Of a stretch of 64,000 bases of DNA, positions 3,226 through 58,247 are shown in pieces. Both the position numbers and the translations under genes were made by a program. Below the pieces are notes generated by a model. It saw only the letters and a list, made by a program, of their open reading frames with translations. It was not told the DNA's origin and made no database searches. The DNA is from Gemmatimonas sp. (GTDB lineage: Bacteria > Gemmatimonadota > Gemmatimonadetes > Gemmatimonadales > Gemmatimonadaceae), in the NCBI GenBank assembly GCA_013822425.1, contig PNKL01000002.1, positions 62,001-126,000 on the forward strand, in the 5' to 3' direction. Positions within the stretch are counted from its first letter, which is position 1; the number at the start of each line of letters is the position of its first letter.

Positions 3226-6200
3226 ATGCCCTTCAAGAGCGTCTGTCCTTTCATTGCCATCACTGCCGCTGTCGCACTGGCGATGAGCCTCCCGTCCGTC
3301 GCGTCCGCGCAATCCGTCGATGTCATTCGCGGGCGGGTCGTCGGCGAGGACTCCGTCGCCATTGCCGGGGCCCGCGTTCAGGCCGTCTCGCTGAGCGGCA
3401 ACGTGACGCGCCGCGCGCTCACCGACAACAGCGGCCGCTTCACGATCACGTTCCCCAACGGGGACGGCGACTACATGGTGACGGTACAGGCCATCGGGTT
3501 CACGATGAAGCGCTTCCAGGTGAAGCGCACGGCGGACCAGGAGATCCTGATCGCCGACGCCAGGCTGTCGCGCGCGATGACGGAGCTCGAGGCCGTGCGC
3601 GTGACACCCGGCGAGCGCACGCGGGCGGTGCGCGACGACCGCCAGCCCGACATCTCGGGCACCGAGCGCAACGTCGCGGCGGCCAACGTCTCGGCCGGCG
3701 ACGCGGGCAACATCGCCGCAATGGCCGCGTCGCTGCCCGGCGTGACGCTGGTGCCGGGGACGGCGGGCGACCCGTCCGGTTTTTCGGTGCTCGGCCTGAC
3801 GCCCGACCAGAATGCGACCACGCTGAACGGTGGCTCGTTCGGCGGCGCCGACGTTCCCCGTGATGCCGGCGTCTCGAGTTCGCTCTCGACCAGCCCGTAC
3901 GACGTGTCGCGCGGTGGCTTCTCCGGGGCGCAGTTCAACATCCGCTCCCCCACCGGCAACAACTTCACGACGCGCACCAACTCGCTCAACCTCGACGCGC
4001 CGTCGCTGCAGTGGACCGACCGCGCCGCGCAGGCGCTCGGCCAGCAGTTCACCAACGTGTCGCTGGGTGGCCTGCTCTCGGGGCCGGTGAAGATCGACGA
4101 GGCCTTCTACAATTTCTCGTACCAGTTGGGCCGCCGCGCCAACGACCTGCAGACGCTGCTCAACACGTCGTCCACGGGGCTTGTCACGAGCGGCATGAGC
4201 CCCGACTCCGCCGTGCGGCTCCTCGGCATCCTGCGCGCCAAGGGCATTCCGCTGTCGCCGCGCGCCTCGGTCAGCAACCGCTACACCGACAACGGCTCGC
4301 TGCTGGCGACCCTCAACATCGCGCCGACGGGCTCGCGCACGGGAGCGGCGTACGCGTTGACGTTCAACGGCTCGGCCAACCGCAGCGCGCCGGTGGGCGG
4401 CTCGATCGGCGAGTTGCCGGGACACAGCGGCGAACGCACCGGCTACAACGGCGGGGTGCAGGGGCGTCACTCGGCGTATTTCGAGTCGGGCCTGCTGTCC
4501 GGCTTCCTGTCGGAGACCAACATCACGCTCAGCGGGTCGCGCAACGAGGGGAATCCGTACTACGACCTGCCAAGCGGCACCGTGCGCGTCACGTCGCAAC
4601 TGCCGGACGGCACGACGGGCGTTCGGTCCGTGCAGTTCGGCGGCAGCACGTTCCTGGACAACGCGCAGGACAACTCGGTTCTCGGGTTCGTCAACACCCT
4701 CTCGTGGTTCTCGCGGAACAACAAGCACCGGATCAAGCTCTCGACCGAACTGCGCCGCGCCGCGTTCGACGAGGACCAGACCACCAACCGGCGGGGATCG
4801 TTCAGCTTCCTGTCGCTGGCCGACCTCGAGAGTGGGCGGGCGGCGTCGTTCTCGCGCCAGCTTTTGCCGCGGGTGCGCAGCGGGGCACAGACGGTGGGCG
4901 CCCTCTCCATCGGCGATGCCTGGCGCAAGTCGAACGACCTGCAGATCCAGTACGGCGTGCGCGTGGACGGCAATGTCTTCAGCGCGGGGCCGACGGAAAA
5001 CCCGGACCTCGCGCGGCGCTTCGGTGCCGACAACAGCTTCGCGCCGAACCACGTCTACGTGAGCCCGCGGCTCGGCTTCTCGTGGCAGTACGGACAGGGC
5101 GCGCAAATCCCGGGTTTCGAGGGCGCCATTCGCGGGCCCCGCGCGGTCGTCCGCGGCGGCGTCGGCGTCTTCCAGAACCTGCCGCAGTCGACGCTCCTCG
5201 GCGCCGCGCTCGACAACACCGGTCTCGCCTCGGCCGTGCAGCAGCTGAACTGCGTGGGCACCACCGTGCCATCGCAGGATTGGGGCGGCTGGCTGAGCAA
5301 CCCGGCCTCCGTGCCGGCGGCGTGCGCCGACGGATCGGTGACGTCGCCGTTCACGAACGTTGCCCCCAACGTGTCGTTCTTCGCCAAGGACTGGCAGGCG
5401 ACGCGCAGCGTGCGCGGCAACCTGCAGTGGAACGGCCCGGTGGCGAATGGCCGCTACACGGCGAACGTGGACCTCACCTACTCGCGGAACCTGAACCAGC
5501 CGGGCAACTACGACCTCAACTTCGCCGGGGTGAGCCGCTTCACGCTCGCGAGCGAGGGCGGGCGTCCGGTCTTCGTTCCGCTGACGAGCATCGATCCCGT
5601 GTCGGGCCTGTCGGCGCCACGTGCGTCGCGCCTGTACCCGGAGTACAACGCCGTCAACGAGGCACGCTCGGACCTGCAGTCGGAGTCCAGGCAGTTTTCG
5701 GTGCGCCTGATGCCGATGACGTTCAACTCCAAGCTCGGATGGAACATCGGCTACGTGTACGGCGACGTGCGTGAGCAGTACCGGGGCTTCCAGAGTACGA
5801 CGGGCGATCCGCGTGCCGTGGCCTGGTCGCGGTCCGCGGCCGCCGCCAAGCACCAGGTGCAGTATTCACTGAACTACAACTTCTTCGACGCCATCCGCGT
5901 GAATTGGTTCGGCAACGTGCGTTCCGGCACCCCGTACACGCCGGGCGTCGCGGGCGACGTGAACGGCGACGGGCTCTACAACGACCGCGCGTTCGTTGCC
6001 GATCCCGCAAAGACCGTGGACCCGGCACTGGCCGCGGCGATGCAGTCGCTCATCAGGAGATCGACGGGCAGCGCCAAGCGCTGCCTCGAGTCGCAACGGG
6101 GTCGCCTGGCCGATCGCAACAGCTGTCAGGGACCGTGGACGCACACCGCCTTCCTGAGCGTCTCGTTCAACCCCATCAAGCTCCACCTCCCGCAACGGGC

Positions 6201-7013: not shown

Positions 7014-8342
7014 ATGTCACTCCGACTCTCCTCCGTACTCGCGCTGGCGGCCCTCGCCGTGCCGCTCGCCGCGCAACAGTCCCTGCCGCCCGTGCGCCCG
7101 CTCGGGCCCGTCACGCAGGTCTCACCCGCTGACCTCCTGGGTTCGGTGTCGGCCGTGCGGCCACTGCCGGGCGGCGGCGCCATCGTCAACGACCTGACGC
7201 GCCGGCAGCTCATCGTGCTCGACGCCGACTTCAAGCTGAAGTCGGTGATCGCCGACACCACGCCCGCCACGGCGAACGGCTATAGCAGCCGCATCGCCGG
7301 GCTGATGGCGTACAAGGGTGACTCGTCGCTGTTCATTGACCCGCAGTCGCTCTCCATGCTCGTGATCGACGGCCACGGAGAAGTGGTGCGCGTGATGGCG
7401 GTGCCGCGGCCGCAGGACGCGAACTTCATGATTGGCGGGCCGTTCGGCACGCCGGGCGTGGACCCGCAGGGCCGCATTGTCTACCGCGGCTTCGTACGGC
7501 CGAACATGAGCGGGATGAACCTGGGCGGCCCGCCGCAGCCGGGACAGGCGATGCGCGCGCCGACGATGGCCGACACGGCGCCGATCTTCCGCGTCAACCT
7601 CGCCACGCGCGCCCTCGACACCGTGACGTATTTCAAGATTCCCAACGCACAGGTGAGCATGACGCAGGACGACCGCGGCGCCATGCGCATCAGCATGATG
7701 ACCAACCCGATGCCGGTGGTGGACGACTGGGCGCTCATGCCCGACGGGCGTATCGCGGTGGTGCGCGGCAAGGACTACCACGTGGACTGGCTCAACTCCG
7801 ACGGCTCGTGGACGTCGACGCCGAAGATCCCGTACAACTGGGAGCGCCTCGACGACGATGCCAAGGAGAAGTTCATCGACTCGGCCAGGGTGGAGGCCGA
7901 GAAGCAGCGCGAGAACATGAACCGCGCCCTGCAGAGCGGCGTCAACAACGCGAACGCCGCGCTGGGCGGCGCGGCCGGCGGCCAGCCGATGCGCATCGAA
8001 CTGCGCTTCGACGGTGGTGGTGGTGGCGGACGGCCGCAGCAGGGCGTCCAGCAGATTTCCGCGCCGAGCATCAACTTCGTAAGTTCGAAGGAACTGCCTG
8101 ACTACCGGCCGGCCTTCCGTCAGGGGGCGGCTCGTGCCGATGACGACGGGAACCTGTGGGTGCGCACGACGCAGCCGAGCGACGCGGGGCCGATCTACGA
8201 CGTCATCAACGCCAAGGGCGAGCTGGTGGACCGCGTCAAGCTGCCGTTCGGCCGCGTGATCTCGGGCTTCGGCAAGGGCGTCGTGTACATGGGCGTGCAG
8301 GACGACAAGGGCGCGCGGTTGGAGATGGCTCGAGTCAAATGA
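7014..8342 (+). CDS. Secreted six-bladed beta-propeller-like protein
   Basis: A 442-residue protein with a clear signal peptide (MSLRLSSVLALAALAVPLAAQ). The body shows recurring propeller phrases: VDPQGRIVYRG, LMPDGRIAVVRG and GNLWVRTTQ, each a strand-turn-strand with a D-G/N turn, as in NHL/6-bladed propellers. A low-complexity Gly/Asn/Gln stretch lies near residues 300-350. An alternative ATG at 6978 overlaps the receptor stop (ATGA) and would put 12 extra residues before the signal peptide; the 7014 start gives the more canonical leader. The gene directly follows the receptor on the same strand, so a role as its surface or periplasmic partner is possible. Function is not recognised. Confidence 0.75.
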   Translation: MSLRLSSVLALAALAVPLAAQQSLPPVRPLGPVTQVSPADLLGSVSAVRPLPGGGAIVNDLTRRQLIVLDADFKLKSVIADTTPATANGYSSRIAGLMAYKGDSSLFIDPQSLSMLVIDGHGEVVRVMAVPRPQDANFMIGGPFGTPGVDPQGRIVYRGFVRPNMSGMNLGGPPQPGQAMRAPTMADTAPIFRVNLATRALDTVTYFKIPNAQVSMTQDDRGAMRISMMTNPMPVVDDWALMPDGRIAVVRGKDYHVDWLNSDGSWTSTPKIPYNWERLDDDAKEKFIDSARVEAEKQRENMNRALQSGVNNANAALGGAAGGQPMRIELRFDGGGGGGRPQQGVQQISAPSINFVSSKELPDYRPAFRQGAARADDDGNLWVRTTQPSDAGPIYDVINAKGELVDRVKLPFGRVISGFGKGVVYMGVQDDKGARLEMARVK

Positions 8343-8474
8343 AGATTCAGGATTTGGATCTAGGATTGCGATAGAGATTGCGATTGAGGACAGCGACCAG
8401 CGATTGCCGTATCGCTGGTCGCTATCTTGTATCGAAGTCATGAATCGTAGTCCTAGGTCCAAATCCTCAATCAG
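8343..8474. repeat. Palindromic intergenic element, GATT-type 6-7-mers (copy A1)
   Basis: The whole gap between two convergent stop codons is one inverted structure. The left arm (8344-8390) reads GATTCAG, GATTTGG, ATCTAG, GATTGC, GATAGA, GATTGC, GATTGAG. The right arm, read on the minus strand, has GATTGAG, GATTTGG, ACCTAG, GACTAC, GATTCAT. The outer 29 bases (8344-8372 against 8444-8472) agree at 25 positions after reverse complementing, and a perfect 13-bp hairpin sits in the middle. Related sequence occurs at 38.2 and 48.6 kb. The right arm runs into the rhodanese stop codon. Confidence 0.85.
8392..8423. terminator. Perfect 13-bp hairpin, candidate bidirectional terminator
   Basis: AGCGACCAGCGAT (8392-8404) and its exact reverse complement (8411-8423) flank a 6-base loop between two convergent genes. 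No strong T run follows on either strand, so intrinsic termination is plausible but unproven. Confidence 0.6.
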
Positions 8475-9451
8475 TTGTCTGGCCTCGTTGGTCCCGTCTC
8501 CACCGGTAGCTCACTCCGTGTCGACCAATCCTGGTACGACCCGTCGTAGAGCAGCACGCGGTAGCCGAGGGAGCGCGCCGCGAGGAGCATGGCACTCGCC
8601 TGCTGTCCGGTGTGGCAGTAGCCGATGATGAGGTCACCCGGCCGAACCCCGGCCGCGGCGAAGGCCGCCGCCAGCTCCGAGGCTGGCCGGATGCGGAAGT
8701 TGGCGTCGGTCAGCGTGGACCAGACGACGCTCCTCGCGCCCGGGATGCGTCCCGCGCGCTGCGGCGCCTGCGCGCTGCCTCCGGCACGGGCGCCCGTGTA
8801 GAACACCGTGTCGCGCGCGTCCACAATTGCCACGCCCGGTGCGCCGAGCATCGAGTGCACGTAGCGGGCGTCCACGACGAAGTTCCTGATCCGCAGCGGC
8901 GTCAGCACGCTGACGCGCGCGCGCGACGTCTCCGCCGACGTGGCATGGCCGGCCGCGGTCCACGCCCCCATGCCGCCGTCAAGCAGCGATGCGCGCTCGC
9001 CGAATCCGGCATACGTCAGCGTGAGCAGGATGCGCGATGCCTGGTAGACCATGTCCTTGGCATAGTAGACGATCACGCGGGAATCGTCGGAGATGCCGAG
9101 GGCGGCGAGTCGTGCAAGCAGCGTATCGGCGCTGGGCATCTCGACGCCGAGCCCGGGACCGCTCCGGTCACCGATGGAGAGATCGGCGACGCTCGTGAGT
9201 CGCGCGCCCGGAATGTGTGCCGCGGCGTACTCCGGCGCGGGCCCCACGTGCAGCAGCACGAGATTCGGATCGTTCAGGTGCTGCGCCAGCCACGCAACGC
9301 TCACGAAGAGCGGCGCACGCGGGTCGGGCGCCGCCGGGGGAAGCGGCTGGGGCGGAGCGACGGCCTGCGACCGGGCGGCCAACGGTGCGCACAGGGCCAG
9401 GGCCAGCAGGAGGTGCAGGCGGCGTCCGGAGGGTCTCTTGGTGATCGTCAT
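8471..9451 (-). CDS. Secreted two-domain rhodanese (sulfurtransferase)
   Basis: A 326-residue protein with an N-terminal signal peptide (LLLALALCAPLAARSQA), hence periplasmic or secreted. Two rhodanese domains follow (about 45-175 and 185-318). The second has the active-site loop GYCHTGQQA with the sulfur-accepting cysteine. The equivalent loop in the first is VYYAKDMVYQ, with no cysteine, so that domain should be catalytically dead, as in tandem thiosulfate/3-mercaptopyruvate sulfurtransferases. EYAAAHIPGA and GRIPGARSVVW are typical domain landmarks. The gene is divergent from the M28 peptidase. The donor and acceptor are unknown. Confidence 0.88.
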   Translation of the reverse strand: MTITKRPSGRRLHLLLALALCAPLAARSQAVAPPQPLPPAAPDPRAPLFVSVAWLAQHLNDPNLVLLHVGPAPEYAAAHIPGARLTSVADLSIGDRSGPGLGVEMPSADTLLARLAALGISDDSRVIVYYAKDMVYQASRILLTLTYAGFGERASLLDGGMGAWTAAGHATSAETSRARVSVLTPLRIRNFVVDARYVHSMLGAPGVAIVDARDTVFYTGARAGGSAQAPQRAGRIPGARSVVWSTLTDANFRIRPASELAAAFAAAGVRPGDLIIGYCHTGQQASAMLLAARSLGYRVLLYDGSYQDWSTRSELPVETGPTRPDN

Positions 9452-14639: not shown

Positions 14640-14708
14640 GGTTCGGGCGGCGTGAGGAAAGAGCGGTGCGGGCCAGCAGAAGATGCAGCGCGCGCGCCGC
14701 TGCGGAAA

Positions 14709-14798
14709 GGACGCGCCGACGCCGGACGCGCCGACGCCGGACGCGCCGACGCCGGACGCGCCGACGCCGGACGCGCCGACGCAGGACGCGCCGACGCA
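14709..14798. repeat. Six-copy 15-bp tandem repeat upstream of the amidase
   Basis: Six consecutive units of GGACGCGCCGACGCC (the last two end in GCA) fill 14709-14798, immediately upstream of the amidase start (14639, minus strand). The copies are almost identical, which points to recent slippage expansion. Confidence 0.9.
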
Positions 14799-22653: not shown

Positions 22654-23829
22654 ATGCCTCGACTAAGTGCCCGCTTCGCGTCACTCCCCTCCTACATGCT
22701 GGCGTCCATTCCGCAAAAGAAGCGGGATCTCATCGCGCGCGGCATGGATGTCATCGACCTCGGGGCGGGTGATGCGGACCTTCCCGCGCCGCCGCGCGCC
22801 GTGGAAGCGCTCGTCGACGCGGCGCGGGATCCGGCGATGTCGCGCTACGGCTTTGGGCTGGGCCTCCCGGCCTATCGCGAGGCGGCCGCCGCGTGGATGG
22901 AACGGCGCTTCGGACAGCGATTCGATCCCCTGAGCGAACTCGTGCCCCTCATCGGGAGCAAGGAAGGGATCGCCCACCTCGCGCTCGCGTACCTCGAGCC
23001 GGGCGACGTCGCCATCATCCCGGATCCGGGCTACCTGGCCTATCTGGGCGGTACGCTGCTCAGCAACGCGAATCCGTACCTCTATGCCATCACGCCGCGC
23101 ACGGATTTCCTCGTGGACGTTGACGAGATTCCCGATGACGTGCGCGCGCGCGCGAAGCTCCTGTACCTGAACTACCCGAACAACCCGACGGCTGCCGTGG
23201 CGCCGCGCGACTACCTCAAGAAGGTGGTGGACTGGTGCGCCACGCACGACATCCTGCTCGTCTATGACAACGCCTACAGCGAGATGACCTTCGACGGGTA
23301 CGTGGCGCCGAGCATCTTCGAGATTGACGGTGCGCGCGAGGTGGCGCTCGAGTTCCACTCGCTCTCCAAGACGTACAACATGACCGGCTGGCGCCTCGGC
23401 TGGGCGGCGGGCGCCGCGAACTTCACGGCGCCGCTCGGCAACGTGAAGAGCTTCCTCGACACCGGCCAGTTCATGGCGGCGCAGCGCGCGGGGGTGGCGG
23501 CGCTTGAGAGCCATGCCGACTGGCTGCCGGGCAACCTCGCGATCTTTCGCGAGCGCCGCGACGCGGCGGTGGCGGCCTTCCGCGCCGAGGGGTTCAGGGT
23601 CGAGGCGCCCAAGGCATCCATGTACCTGTGGGTGCCGCTGCCCGCCGGCGTCGCCTCCCTCGAGTTCCAGGAGCGGCTGATGCAGGAGGAAGGCGTCGTC
23701 GTGCTCGCGGGCAAGGCGCTTGGCGACGGCGGCGAGGGGTTCTTCCGCGTTTCGTTCATCACGTCGCCGGCGCGGTTGGCTGACGCGGCGAAGCGGGCGG
23801 GACGCGTGCTGAAGCAGGTGACGAGGTAG
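22654..23829 (+). CDS. Class I/II PLP-dependent aminotransferase
   Basis: A 391-residue fold-type I aminotransferase. Landmarks are YGFGLGLPAYREAAA, the NYPNNPTAAV substrate/cofactor loop, VYDNAYSEM with the Asp and Tyr that hold PLP, and SLSKTYNMTGWRLGW with the Schiff-base Lys and the phosphate-binding Arg. The sequence resembles aspartate- and LL-diaminopimelate-type enzymes. Placed after the tyrosine-degradation genes it might feed or drain aromatic 2-oxo acids, but a terminator and a repeat separate it from hmgA, so co-expression is uncertain. The frame is open far upstream in error; the ATG at 22654 matches the family N terminus. Confidence 0.88.
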   Translation: MPRLSARFASLPSYMLASIPQKKRDLIARGMDVIDLGAGDADLPAPPRAVEALVDAARDPAMSRYGFGLGLPAYREAAAAWMERRFGQRFDPLSELVPLIGSKEGIAHLALAYLEPGDVAIIPDPGYLAYLGGTLLSNANPYLYAITPRTDFLVDVDEIPDDVRARAKLLYLNYPNNPTAAVAPRDYLKKVVDWCATHDILLVYDNAYSEMTFDGYVAPSIFEIDGAREVALEFHSLSKTYNMTGWRLGWAAGAANFTAPLGNVKSFLDTGQFMAAQRAGVAALESHADWLPGNLAIFRERRDAAVAAFRAEGFRVEAPKASMYLWVPLPAGVASLEFQERLMQEEGVVVLAGKALGDGGEGFFRVSFITSPARLADAAKRAGRVLKQVTR

Positions 23830-38164: not shown

Positions 38165-38241
38165 GTTCAGTCGTGACGCCAGTCGCGAATCGCAAGCCTG
38201 GATCGACATCCCAATCGCGATCCTGAGTCCAGATCCTCAAT
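38165..38241. repeat. GATT-type repeat, single arm (copy A2)
   Basis: Read on the minus strand the stretch gives GATTGAG, GATCTGG, ACTCAG, GATCGC, GATTGGG, GATCCAG, the same unit order as the arms at 8.3 and 48.6 kb. No opposite arm is present. The TGA stop of the DUF502 gene is formed by the first unit (GATTGAG). Confidence 0.75.
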
Positions 38242-38791
38242 CGAGCTTCGGAAGGTCCGTCACGCCACCCGACACCACGAACGCCATGAACTCCGCGCTG
38301 TCGGCCGCCAACGGCGTCACGCGGCGGGCGTGGACCAGCAACAGCTGCCCCGAGAAGTTGTACGAGTGTGGGCAGTAGACGGCGACATGCGCGTCGAGGC
38401 CGAGCCTCGCCAGGGCGGGCTGCGTGATGAAGCCGAGCATCCTGGGGCTGTCACCCTCGCCCAGCGCCACGAGCACCGGCTTGTCGAAGCGCTTCTTCTC
38501 CCCGACGAACGCGCTCAAGAGGTCCTTGGTCGCGGTGTAGAGCAGGCGCACGAAGGGCAGTTTGTTGAGCACGTCCTCCAGCATGCTCACGGCGCCGCGC
38601 GTCAGGATGCTCGAGCCGAGGGCACCGACGAGCGTGATGAGCGCGATGGTCGTGACAAAGCCGACGCCGGGAATCGAAATCCCAAGCCAGCCGTCGACCT
38701 GCGTGAACACCGTGAAGGAGACCCAGACGGTCACCACCAGTGGCACGGTGAGCACCAGACCGCGGAGGAAAAAGCCAAGGAGCCGTTTCAT
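38237..38791 (-). CDS. DUF502 family membrane protein
   Basis: The ATG at 38791 gives 184 residues matching the DUF502 family: two N-terminal transmembrane helices (LLGFFLRGLVLTVPLVVTVWV; GFVTTIALITLVGALGSSIL), then a soluble domain with the family's PFVRLLYTATKDLLSAF and VYCPHSYNFSGQ segments. Its function is not established. It is divergent from the large S9 peptidase gene (97 bp between starts). Confidence 0.82.
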   Translation of the reverse strand: MKRLLGFFLRGLVLTVPLVVTVWVSFTVFTQVDGWLGISIPGVGFVTTIALITLVGALGSSILTRGAVSMLEDVLNKLPFVRLLYTATKDLLSAFVGEKKRFDKPVLVALGEGDSPRMLGFITQPALARLGLDAHVAVYCPHSYNFSGQLLLVHARRVTPLAADSAEFMAFVVSGGVTDLPKLD

Positions 38792-43705: not shown

Positions 43706-43769
43706 ACAGGGGGCCTCCGAAGGAGAATGAAACGACGGGGGATTATGCACGGCGGGCGGCCCGGCGTCC

Positions 43770-43834
43770 ATCGCGGTGCCCGCAACATCGCGGTGCCCGC
43801 AACATCGCGGTGCCCGCAACATCGCGGTGCCAGC
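43770..43834. repeat. 17-bp tandem repeat in the divergent spacer upstream of speA
   Basis: Three perfect copies of ATCGCGGTGCCCGCAAC (43770-43786, 43787-43803, 43804-43820) and a degenerate fourth lie between the cytochrome and decarboxylase starts. Confidence 0.88.
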
Positions 43835-43910
43835 ACGCGGTGCCCGCACGGCGCGCCGGCGGTTTCGCCTATCGCTTCTGATGCCCGTGCTCGATACGTT
43901 TCGTGTACTG

Positions 43911-48550: not shown

Positions 48551-48707
48551 GATGACGATTGAGGATTTGGACTCAGGATTACGATTCAGGACCACGACCG
48601 AGGATTCCGATTGGCGACTACGGTTTGCCGACGGGGGATCTCAATCGCCCATCGCGATCATCAATCGCAATCCTGAATCGCAATCCTGAGTCCCAATCCT
48701 CAGTTAT
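48551..48707. repeat. Palindromic intergenic element, GATT-type (copy A3)
   Basis: The spacer between two divergent genes is one inverted structure. The left arm reads GATTGAG, GATTTGG, ACTCAG, GATTAC, GATTCAG, GACCAC, GACCGAG, GATTCC. The right arm on the minus strand reads GATTGGG, ACTCAG, GATTGC, GATTCAG, GATTGC, GATTGAT. The stretch 48558-48591 matches the reverse complement of 48671-48704 at 31 of 34 positions. Unlike copy A1 it covers two promoter regions. Confidence 0.85.
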
Positions 48708-57516: not shown

Positions 57517-57582
57517 GATGGTAGGTGGTAGAGGGTAGATGGTAGGAGGTAGGTGGTAGATGGTAGATAGTAGAGGGTAGAT
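57517..57582. repeat. Left heptad array (GATGGTA/GAGGGTA units)
   Basis: Nine consecutive 7-bp units begin 19 bp after the actF stop: GATGGTA, GGTGGTA, GAGGGTA, GATGGTA, GGAGGTA, GGTGGTA, GATGGTA, GATAGTA, GAGGGTA, then GAT. It is the reverse-complement counterpart of the array at 58107-58208. Confidence 0.92.
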
Positions 57583-57584
57583 CG

Positions 57585-57619
57585 GGCGGCGGATCAAGCG
57601 GTGTCGTTGATCCGCCGCC
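57585..57619 (-). terminator. 13-bp hairpin across the stop codon of the four-helix-bundle gene
   Basis: GGCGGCGGATCAA (57585-57597) and its exact reverse complement (57607-57619) enclose a 9-base loop. On the minus strand it covers the last codons and the stop of the small gene, so it may end its transcript. There is no T run. Confidence 0.55.
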
Positions 57620-57968
57620 TTGCGTTTCGCCGGACGGCTTGCAGGAGGCGAACCAGCCTGGGGGCGAGGTTGTCCACTTTCAACTTCAGCACGCTGAGTT
57701 GCTCCGGTGAAAGCAAGCCAGCGTCGCATGCCACCTGCAGGTGGTTCTCAGTCTCCTTGGCAGAAGCGAGCGCAATGGCGATGTAGCGCGCAAACACCGC
57801 CTGCGACTCGCTGCCGGCGCCCTCGGCGAGATTCGCTGGAATCGCGCGGGCGGCGCGGAGCAACTGGGCGCGAAGGTCTCGATCACTGACCGACGCGCCC
57901 ACCACGTGGCACGCCAAGGCCAAGTCGCGTGCCTGTTCGTACACCTTGAGCTTGTGCAGCGGGTACAT
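57594..57968 (-). CDS. Four-helix-bundle protein, 23S rRNA intervening-sequence (S23/IVP, Avd-like) family
   Basis: A 124-residue basic protein matching the S23/IVP family: LHKLKVYEQARDLALA at the start, the hallmark LRAQLLRAARAIPANLAEGAG in the middle (shown in part: ANLAEGAG), then ASAKETENHLQVACDAGLLS. These proteins form pentameric four-helix bundles and include Avd of diversity-generating retroelements; many members have no known role. Here there is no reverse transcriptase or rRNA gene nearby. The gene sits alone between inverted heptad arrays, in opposite orientation to the act and ccm operons. The reading frame is intact. Confidence 0.9.
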   Translation of the reverse strand: MYPLHKLKVYEQARDLALACHVVGASVSDRDLRAQLLRAARAIPANLAEGAGSESQAVFARYIAIALASAKETENHLQVACDAGLLSPEQLSVLKLKVDNLAPRLVRLLQAVRRNARRRINDTA

Positions 57969-57973
57969 GCGAC

Positions 57974-57999
57974 AAGATCGCGCGCGCGACGGCGATCTT
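57974..57999. promoter_or_regulatory. Inverted repeat in the leader of the four-helix-bundle gene
   Basis: AAGATCGC (57974-57981) and GCGATCTT (57992-57999) form a perfect 8-bp stem, 5 bp upstream of the gene start on the minus strand. It could hide the ribosome site or bind the protein. Confidence 0.4.
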
Positions 58000-58106
58000 C
58001 CTCACCAATCGAACGCGTTGCGAAACGTTGTATTGCCGAGGGGTCGGACGACCGCGGCACCTGTTGGCGGGGTACCAGCATGGCCGCGTTGTAATCCGTC
58101 GCCGAT

Positions 58107-58208
58107 CCTCTACCCTCTACCCTCTACCCTCTACCCTCTACCCTCTACCCTCTACCCTCTACCCTCTACCCTCTACCCTCTACCCTCTACCCTCTACCCT
58201 CTACCATC
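58107..58208. repeat. Right heptad array (TACCCTC units)
   Basis: Thirteen perfect TACCCTC units (58111-58201) and a final TACCATC (58202-58208), preceded by a partial unit. The terminal TACCATC is the exact reverse complement of the outermost unit on the left (GATGGTA). Inwards, the inverted similarity continues: 57580-57596 and the reverse complement of 58092-58108 agree at about 14 of 17 positions with one gap. Confidence 0.95.
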
Positions 58209-58247
58209 TGCCCTTCACACCCCTCGGCACTTAGATTTGAGCACGAC

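Follow-up and report, generated by a model that had tools for sequence, protein, structure and literature searches.

An intergenic palindromic repeat family linked to an S23 gene in Gemmatimonadota

ERIC and other intergenic imperfect palindromes are about 130 bp long and occur in multiple copies between genes. In REPIN-RAYT systems, each type of repeat has next to it a single-copy gene that is not itself mobile (Bertels and Rainey 2011, PMC3116915). In Coxiella, the 23S rRNA intervening sequence (IVS) has an S23 ORF in a long inverted-repeat stem, and GACAGAT heptamers are repeated in tandem next to this ORF; how rRNA intervening sequences arose has been described as unclear (PMC4990558). S23/IVP proteins are common and their crystal structures are known; no function is assigned to them in the literature surveyed, and searches of an open-access library found no report that links S23 genes to repeats.

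Here we analyse element A1, a two-armed 13-mer palindrome at positions 8343..8474 (no strand assigned) of a 64-kb window, the window being the whole stretch of DNA analysed. On balance, A1 probably belongs, as a copy without a gene, to a non-autonomous repeat family of REPIN-like type. The cognate gene of this family would be S23-A, which is single-copy and vertically inherited and is itself enclosed by a pair of the same arms.

Position, arms and fold of element A1

Analysis of the window revealed that A1 occupies a convergent gap. The upstream gene (7014..8342, + strand), without a Pfam match, ends in TGA at 8340-8342, abutting the element, and A1 sequence starts at 8344 (GATTCAGG). On the other side, the AATC at the right end of A1 (8472) overlaps the stop codon of the downstream gene (8471..9451, - strand), which encodes a rhodanese (PF00581). 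A1 itself is gene-less. The palindrome is imperfect; its two arms, inverted relative to each other, measure about 62 bp and comprise five degenerate 13-mers each (GATTGAGGATTTG GACTCAGGATTGC ...). The arm model identified the left arm at 8344..8405 (+ strand; GATTCAGGATTTG GATCTAGGATTGC ...; E 3e-14) and the right arm at 8411..8472 (- strand; GATTGAGGATTTG GACCTAGGACTAC ...; E 2e-14); the first 22 nt of the right arm are the same as the S23-A arm of the source genome. The two arms form a 54-pair stem, within which an innermost perfect 13-bp stem with a 6-nt loop (8392..8423, no strand assigned) consists of AGCGACCAGCGAT at 8392-8404 and ATCGCTGGTCGCT at 8411-8423. Folding of A1 as RNA gave a minimum free energy of -80.5 kcal/mol (z -12.9), and none of 200 shuffled sequences folded equally well.

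These results confirm two claims of a preliminary description of this locus, namely that a palindrome fills the convergent gap from the stop of one gene into the stop codon of the other, and that it holds a perfect 13-bp hairpin. The inverted arms of that description were also found; however, instead of random 6-7-mers they show a 13-bp (7+6) period. No Rfam match was obtained at A1 and no rRNA match in the 64-kb window; the element lies between protein genes and not in a 23S rRNA helix. Elsewhere in the window, near-perfect tandem repeats of 15 bp and 17 bp are present at 14694-14797 and 43769-43835.

Copies, insertion sites and inheritance of the repeat family

An arm profile run over collected regions of the source genome, G000 (Gemmatimonadota), revealed about 66 copies, of which 35 have two arms and about 31 are solo arms; copies were gathered by search and from the regions around the matches, and degenerate ones may be missed in this number. 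A whole-genome search with A1 as query gave 67 matches, and a 15-mer pattern matched 124 times compared with twice for its reversed control. Alignment of 88 arms of G000 yielded the consensus GATTGAGGATtTG GActcAGGATtgC GATtnAGGATnnC GATTnAGGATtgC GATTggCGATng, again five degenerate 13-mers. The genome-wide count of copies and their positions relative to genes, which the preliminary description had called for, thus gives about 66 copies where it had considered that only three might exist. Of the two recurrences that it listed in the window, the one at 48.6 kb is indeed a two-armed copy (A3, 48557..48705, no strand assigned, between divergent genes), while the one at 38.2 kb is a single arm and no palindrome (A2, 38181..38242, - strand, E 1e-15).

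Family copies are intergenic. With genes called by a simple codon-usage caller, so that gene ends are approximate, the distance from an outer end to a gene start or stop has a median of 6 bp and is at most 20 bp for 74 of the 100 scorable ends, compared with only 4 of the 32 inner ends of solo arms. Of 64 scorable gene contexts, 43 are tandem, 13 convergent and 8 divergent. These numbers bear on the view that the elements are bidirectional intrinsic terminators of convergent genes. The convergent gap and strong stem of A1 would fit such a role, as would the GC-rich perfect hairpin (GGGGCGCC...GGCGCCCC) that is central in several two-armed copies (for example G000 C55, C1:75857 and C9:75616), as if the arms had formed around a terminator hairpin. 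However, only the 13 contexts above are convergent, divergent and solo-arm copies exist, no T-run is consistent among copies at the element ends, and at the empty site described below the gene retains a GC hairpin of its own next to the inserted element. We therefore regard a terminator function as very improbable.

Matches to the family were found in 10 of the 11 genomes of the genus and in none of 10 genomes sampled elsewhere in the family and the order, all of other genera. A scan of 85,000 species with a 23-base pattern found matches in Gemmatimonadota records only. A viral origin was considered and rejected: the single pattern match in viral contigs was unsupported by the arm model, and the viral contigs held no S23 relative of the query.

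Comparison with related species revealed that A1 is present at the orthologous gap in two of them, G005 and G001, which indicates that old copies are vertically inherited. The preliminary description had named identical copies at orthologous sites in distant relatives as evidence against its reading, and this is borne out in part: orthologous copies do exist, but they are not identical. Across the three species the motif reads CTAG, then CTCAG, then ATCCGG, with both arms shifting together, and the hairpin is conserved through two-sided changes at 11 of its 54 pairs. Such compensatory change is paralleled within G000, where the two arms of one element are more alike than arms of different elements; none of 10,000 permutations gave arm covariation within elements as strong at positions 13-26. 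Among the collected regions, G000 and G005 share 17 filled sites, often with the same solo or double state, a count biased by the fact that most regions of the relatives were picked for containing an element. Many copies therefore appear to be old and inherited and not recently mobile. One clean empty site was found on comparing G000 (C39, about 4419-4541) with G005; the element there lies at a stop codon, between a gene and that gene's own GC hairpin. Shared sites together with at least this one clean empty site indicate that the copies have been mobile over a long time scale and were then inherited.

According to the main rival explanation, the hairpins are host-owned RNA structures with a role at the transcript level (in mRNA end protection, in RNase III processing or in termination), S23-A being a coevolving RNA-hairpin-binding partner, and the family, once mobile, is now kept for function. 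The very stable hairpin, its compensatory change at the A1 site in three species and the 17 shared sites are consistent with this role, as is the position of the outer ends within 20 bp of genes, 49 at stop codons and 25 at starts. S23 genes are also found in RNase III-cut IVS RNA stems of other bacteria (PMC4990558). On the other hand, all gene orientations are represented, including the 8 divergent gaps; about half of the copies are solo arms, unable to form the long hairpin; and presence varies among species, as the empty sites show. We consider this explanation unlikely, although less so than the other alternatives discussed here.

S23-A and the arms of other S23 genes

The element at G000:C9:22744-23374 encloses an S23/IVP gene (22773-23249, - strand), namely S23-A, with its stop codon inside the 3' arm in G000. 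It is the only gene found between family arms and has no transposase domain. The protein scored 48.8 bits against PF05635 (gathering score 33.8) and 57.3 against TIGR02436 of NCBIfam (threshold 24), which places it in the S23 family. A predicted model of the G009 protein, of moderate confidence (pLDDT 70.8), had the S23 crystal structures 2GSC and 2RLD as best fold matches and suggests a four-helix bundle; 4DWL (Avd) was among the weaker structural matches.

S23-A is present as a single copy at the same locus, bracketed by the same kind of arms, in 10 of the 11 genus genomes. In one genome, G003, S23-A and the repeats are jointly absent: no S23-A was found, and three separate queries each gave 0 elements. 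At 87% completeness, this assembly may have missed the gene; the lack of a single element in 3.2 Mb cannot be explained by incompleteness. That nearly all related species have the same repeat on both sides of one conserved S23 gene suggests a role of S23 proteins in spreading or maintaining repeats of this kind.

Joint evolution of S23-A and the dispersed copies predicts that the S23-A arms of other species match their own genome most, and this was borne out. An arm from the S23-A locus of G004 gave 56 matches in G004 and 4-25 in other genomes with S23-A, and an arm from that of G008 gave 59 in G008 and 2-28 in the others. In a separate sample of arms, not picked by own-species queries, arms were closer to the S23-A motif of their own species by 7-mer similarity (permutation p 0.004) and in an exact-motif version (p 0.058), these values not being fully independent because the species are related. 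In G000 and G010, dispersed arms resemble the S23-A arms of their own genome only loosely, in a small sample of non-independent species. On contig C17 of G009, a 9-kb stretch has at least three strong copies of the arm type of G004 (87-90% identity); this cluster may reflect transfer or a mis-binned contig.

The window has its own S23/IVP gene at 57594..57968 (- strand), a paralog of subfamily E that is the cognate of a different 7-mer repeat family and not part of A1. Its arms consist of GGTAGAN heptamers (GGTAGAG; 57517..57581, + strand) and, inverted, of CCCTCTA heptamers (58107..58214, + strand). This unit (57517-58214) is directly followed by tRNA-Ala (58248). An orthologous unit is present in all genus genomes checked, often with a different heptamer (GGTAGAC, GGGAGAT, GGCAGAT, GGATGGC and others). 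Since the window's S23 gene belongs to subfamily E with heptamer arms and the arms of A1 are of S23-A type, A1 belongs to a sister repeat family. The earlier suggestion that A1 is a gene-less relative of the S23 unit therefore stands as to kinship, as the same arms bracket an S23 gene in G000 and nine relatives; the parent, however, is S23-A and not the S23 gene of the window.

Analysis of S23 genes across the genus revealed inverted arms above the maximum of the controls at 44 of 54 S23 genes, compared with 0 of 48 control genes. These arms are mostly short-period tandem repeats, the unit of which varies by subfamily: a 13-mer in A, mixed G-rich units in B and C, 8-11-mers in D and 7-mers in E, with arms mostly absent in F. 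In other genera of the class, arms were found at 20 of 24 scorable S23 genes by a near-identical score. On plasmids, inverted short repeats flank all seven cyanobacterial S23 genes inspected and one of Gemmatirosa, one of these cases being borderline. In two cyanobacterial plasmids, pANA02 of Anabaena and pPg_01 of Pseudanabaena, cas6 and cas4 of a CRISPR locus flank an S23 gene that has inverted heptamer arms.

Another dispersed family, in which the 11-mer AGAGAAACAAC forms inverted runs, outnumbers the A1 family (317 pattern matches in G000) and tracks S23 subfamily D. It gave 38-317 matches in seven genomes having S23-D with AGAG-type 9-11-mer arms, in three of which the S23-D arms are a variant unit, and 0-2 in four others; these counts are only indicative, since the reversed control is not clean: when reversed, the pattern still matches this repeat.

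The arms of different S23 subfamilies also bear on whether A1 belongs to an ordinary MITE family of some transposase, S23-A having merely been captured between two copies long ago. The inverted repeats, their dispersal between genes and the existence of an empty site agree with this view. However, target duplications of 2-8 bp were found at none of the 35 two-armed copies, and a single capture cannot explain why several unrelated S23 subfamilies, and cyanobacterial S23 genes, are bracketed by different tandem-repeat arms. No parent transposon with the same ends and a transposase was found, S23-A being the sole gene between arms. This explanation is accordingly quite improbable. Of the label MITE-like in the preliminary description, the gene-less kinship holds; a MITE in the strict sense is not indicated, given the missing duplications and the lack of a known transposase.

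Proposed mechanism and comparison with described systems

The linkage of arms to S23-A, their joint absence, the covariation of arms, species-specific matching and insertion are observed; in the preferred reading, S23-A would be the agent of dispersal. The protein, which probably forms a pentameric ring as other S23 proteins do, may bind the hairpin as single-stranded DNA or RNA and help to copy or re-write arms at gene ends. It would probably use host replication or repair enzymes, because S23 is without a known catalytic site, and old copies would then persist as hairpins between genes. Against this reading, S23 proteins have no known catalytic activity, so that the activity proposed is putative, and the absence of target duplications leaves the family without this hallmark of transposition. 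S23 could instead be a passenger or a hairpin-binding regulator.

More tentatively, and with somewhat less confidence than for A1 itself, S23/IVP proteins may form a widespread class that acts in trans on palindromic and short-period tandem repeats, spreading or homogenising them, with one repeat per S23 lineage. This would account for the Gemmatimonadota repeats, the cyanobacterial heptamers and the origin of the 23S rRNA IVS. With a repeat family assigned to each S23 lineage, in two phyla at least, the function of S23 and the origin of the IVS become simple questions of binding and insertion.

Two other candidate drivers were rejected. RAYT (Y1_Tnp, PF01797) is present in two of the 11 genus genomes and complete in neither, one gene being cut at a contig end and the other having an internal stop, and a reverse transcriptase gene is present in one of the 11. 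Neither can therefore be the general driver.

Like ERIC, the A1 family is about 130 bp long, intergenic, palindromic and multi-copy; it differs in sequence and phylum and in having 13-bp periodic arms and a linked gene. As in the 23S rRNA IVS, an S23/IVP ORF lies between terminal inverted repeats in the S23-A units, whereas the units described here are found between protein genes and have many gene-less relatives. The Avd protein of diversity-generating retroelements has the same four-helix fold (4DWL); Avd, however, needs a reverse transcriptase, which is encoded in only one genus genome, and an Avd-like route is accordingly unlikely.

REPIN-RAYT is the closest working model. The family resembles it in its dispersed extragenic palindromes, which occur as inverted doublets (35 here) and singlets (about 31 here), in the single-copy, distinctive gene per repeat type that adjoins its own repeats (S23-A, in 10 of 11 genomes), and in the presence of several types per genome. 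It differs in that the cognate gene is S23/IVP and not a Y1 tyrosine transposase, in having arms of about 62 bp built from 13-bp tandem units and not short REP hairpins, and in that RAYT is nearly absent from the genus. As the required RAYT is missing, the family does not belong to REPIN-RAYT, while the likeness in behaviour holds; the link between S23 and its repeats, if true, would tie bacterial repeat populations to a non-transposase protein.
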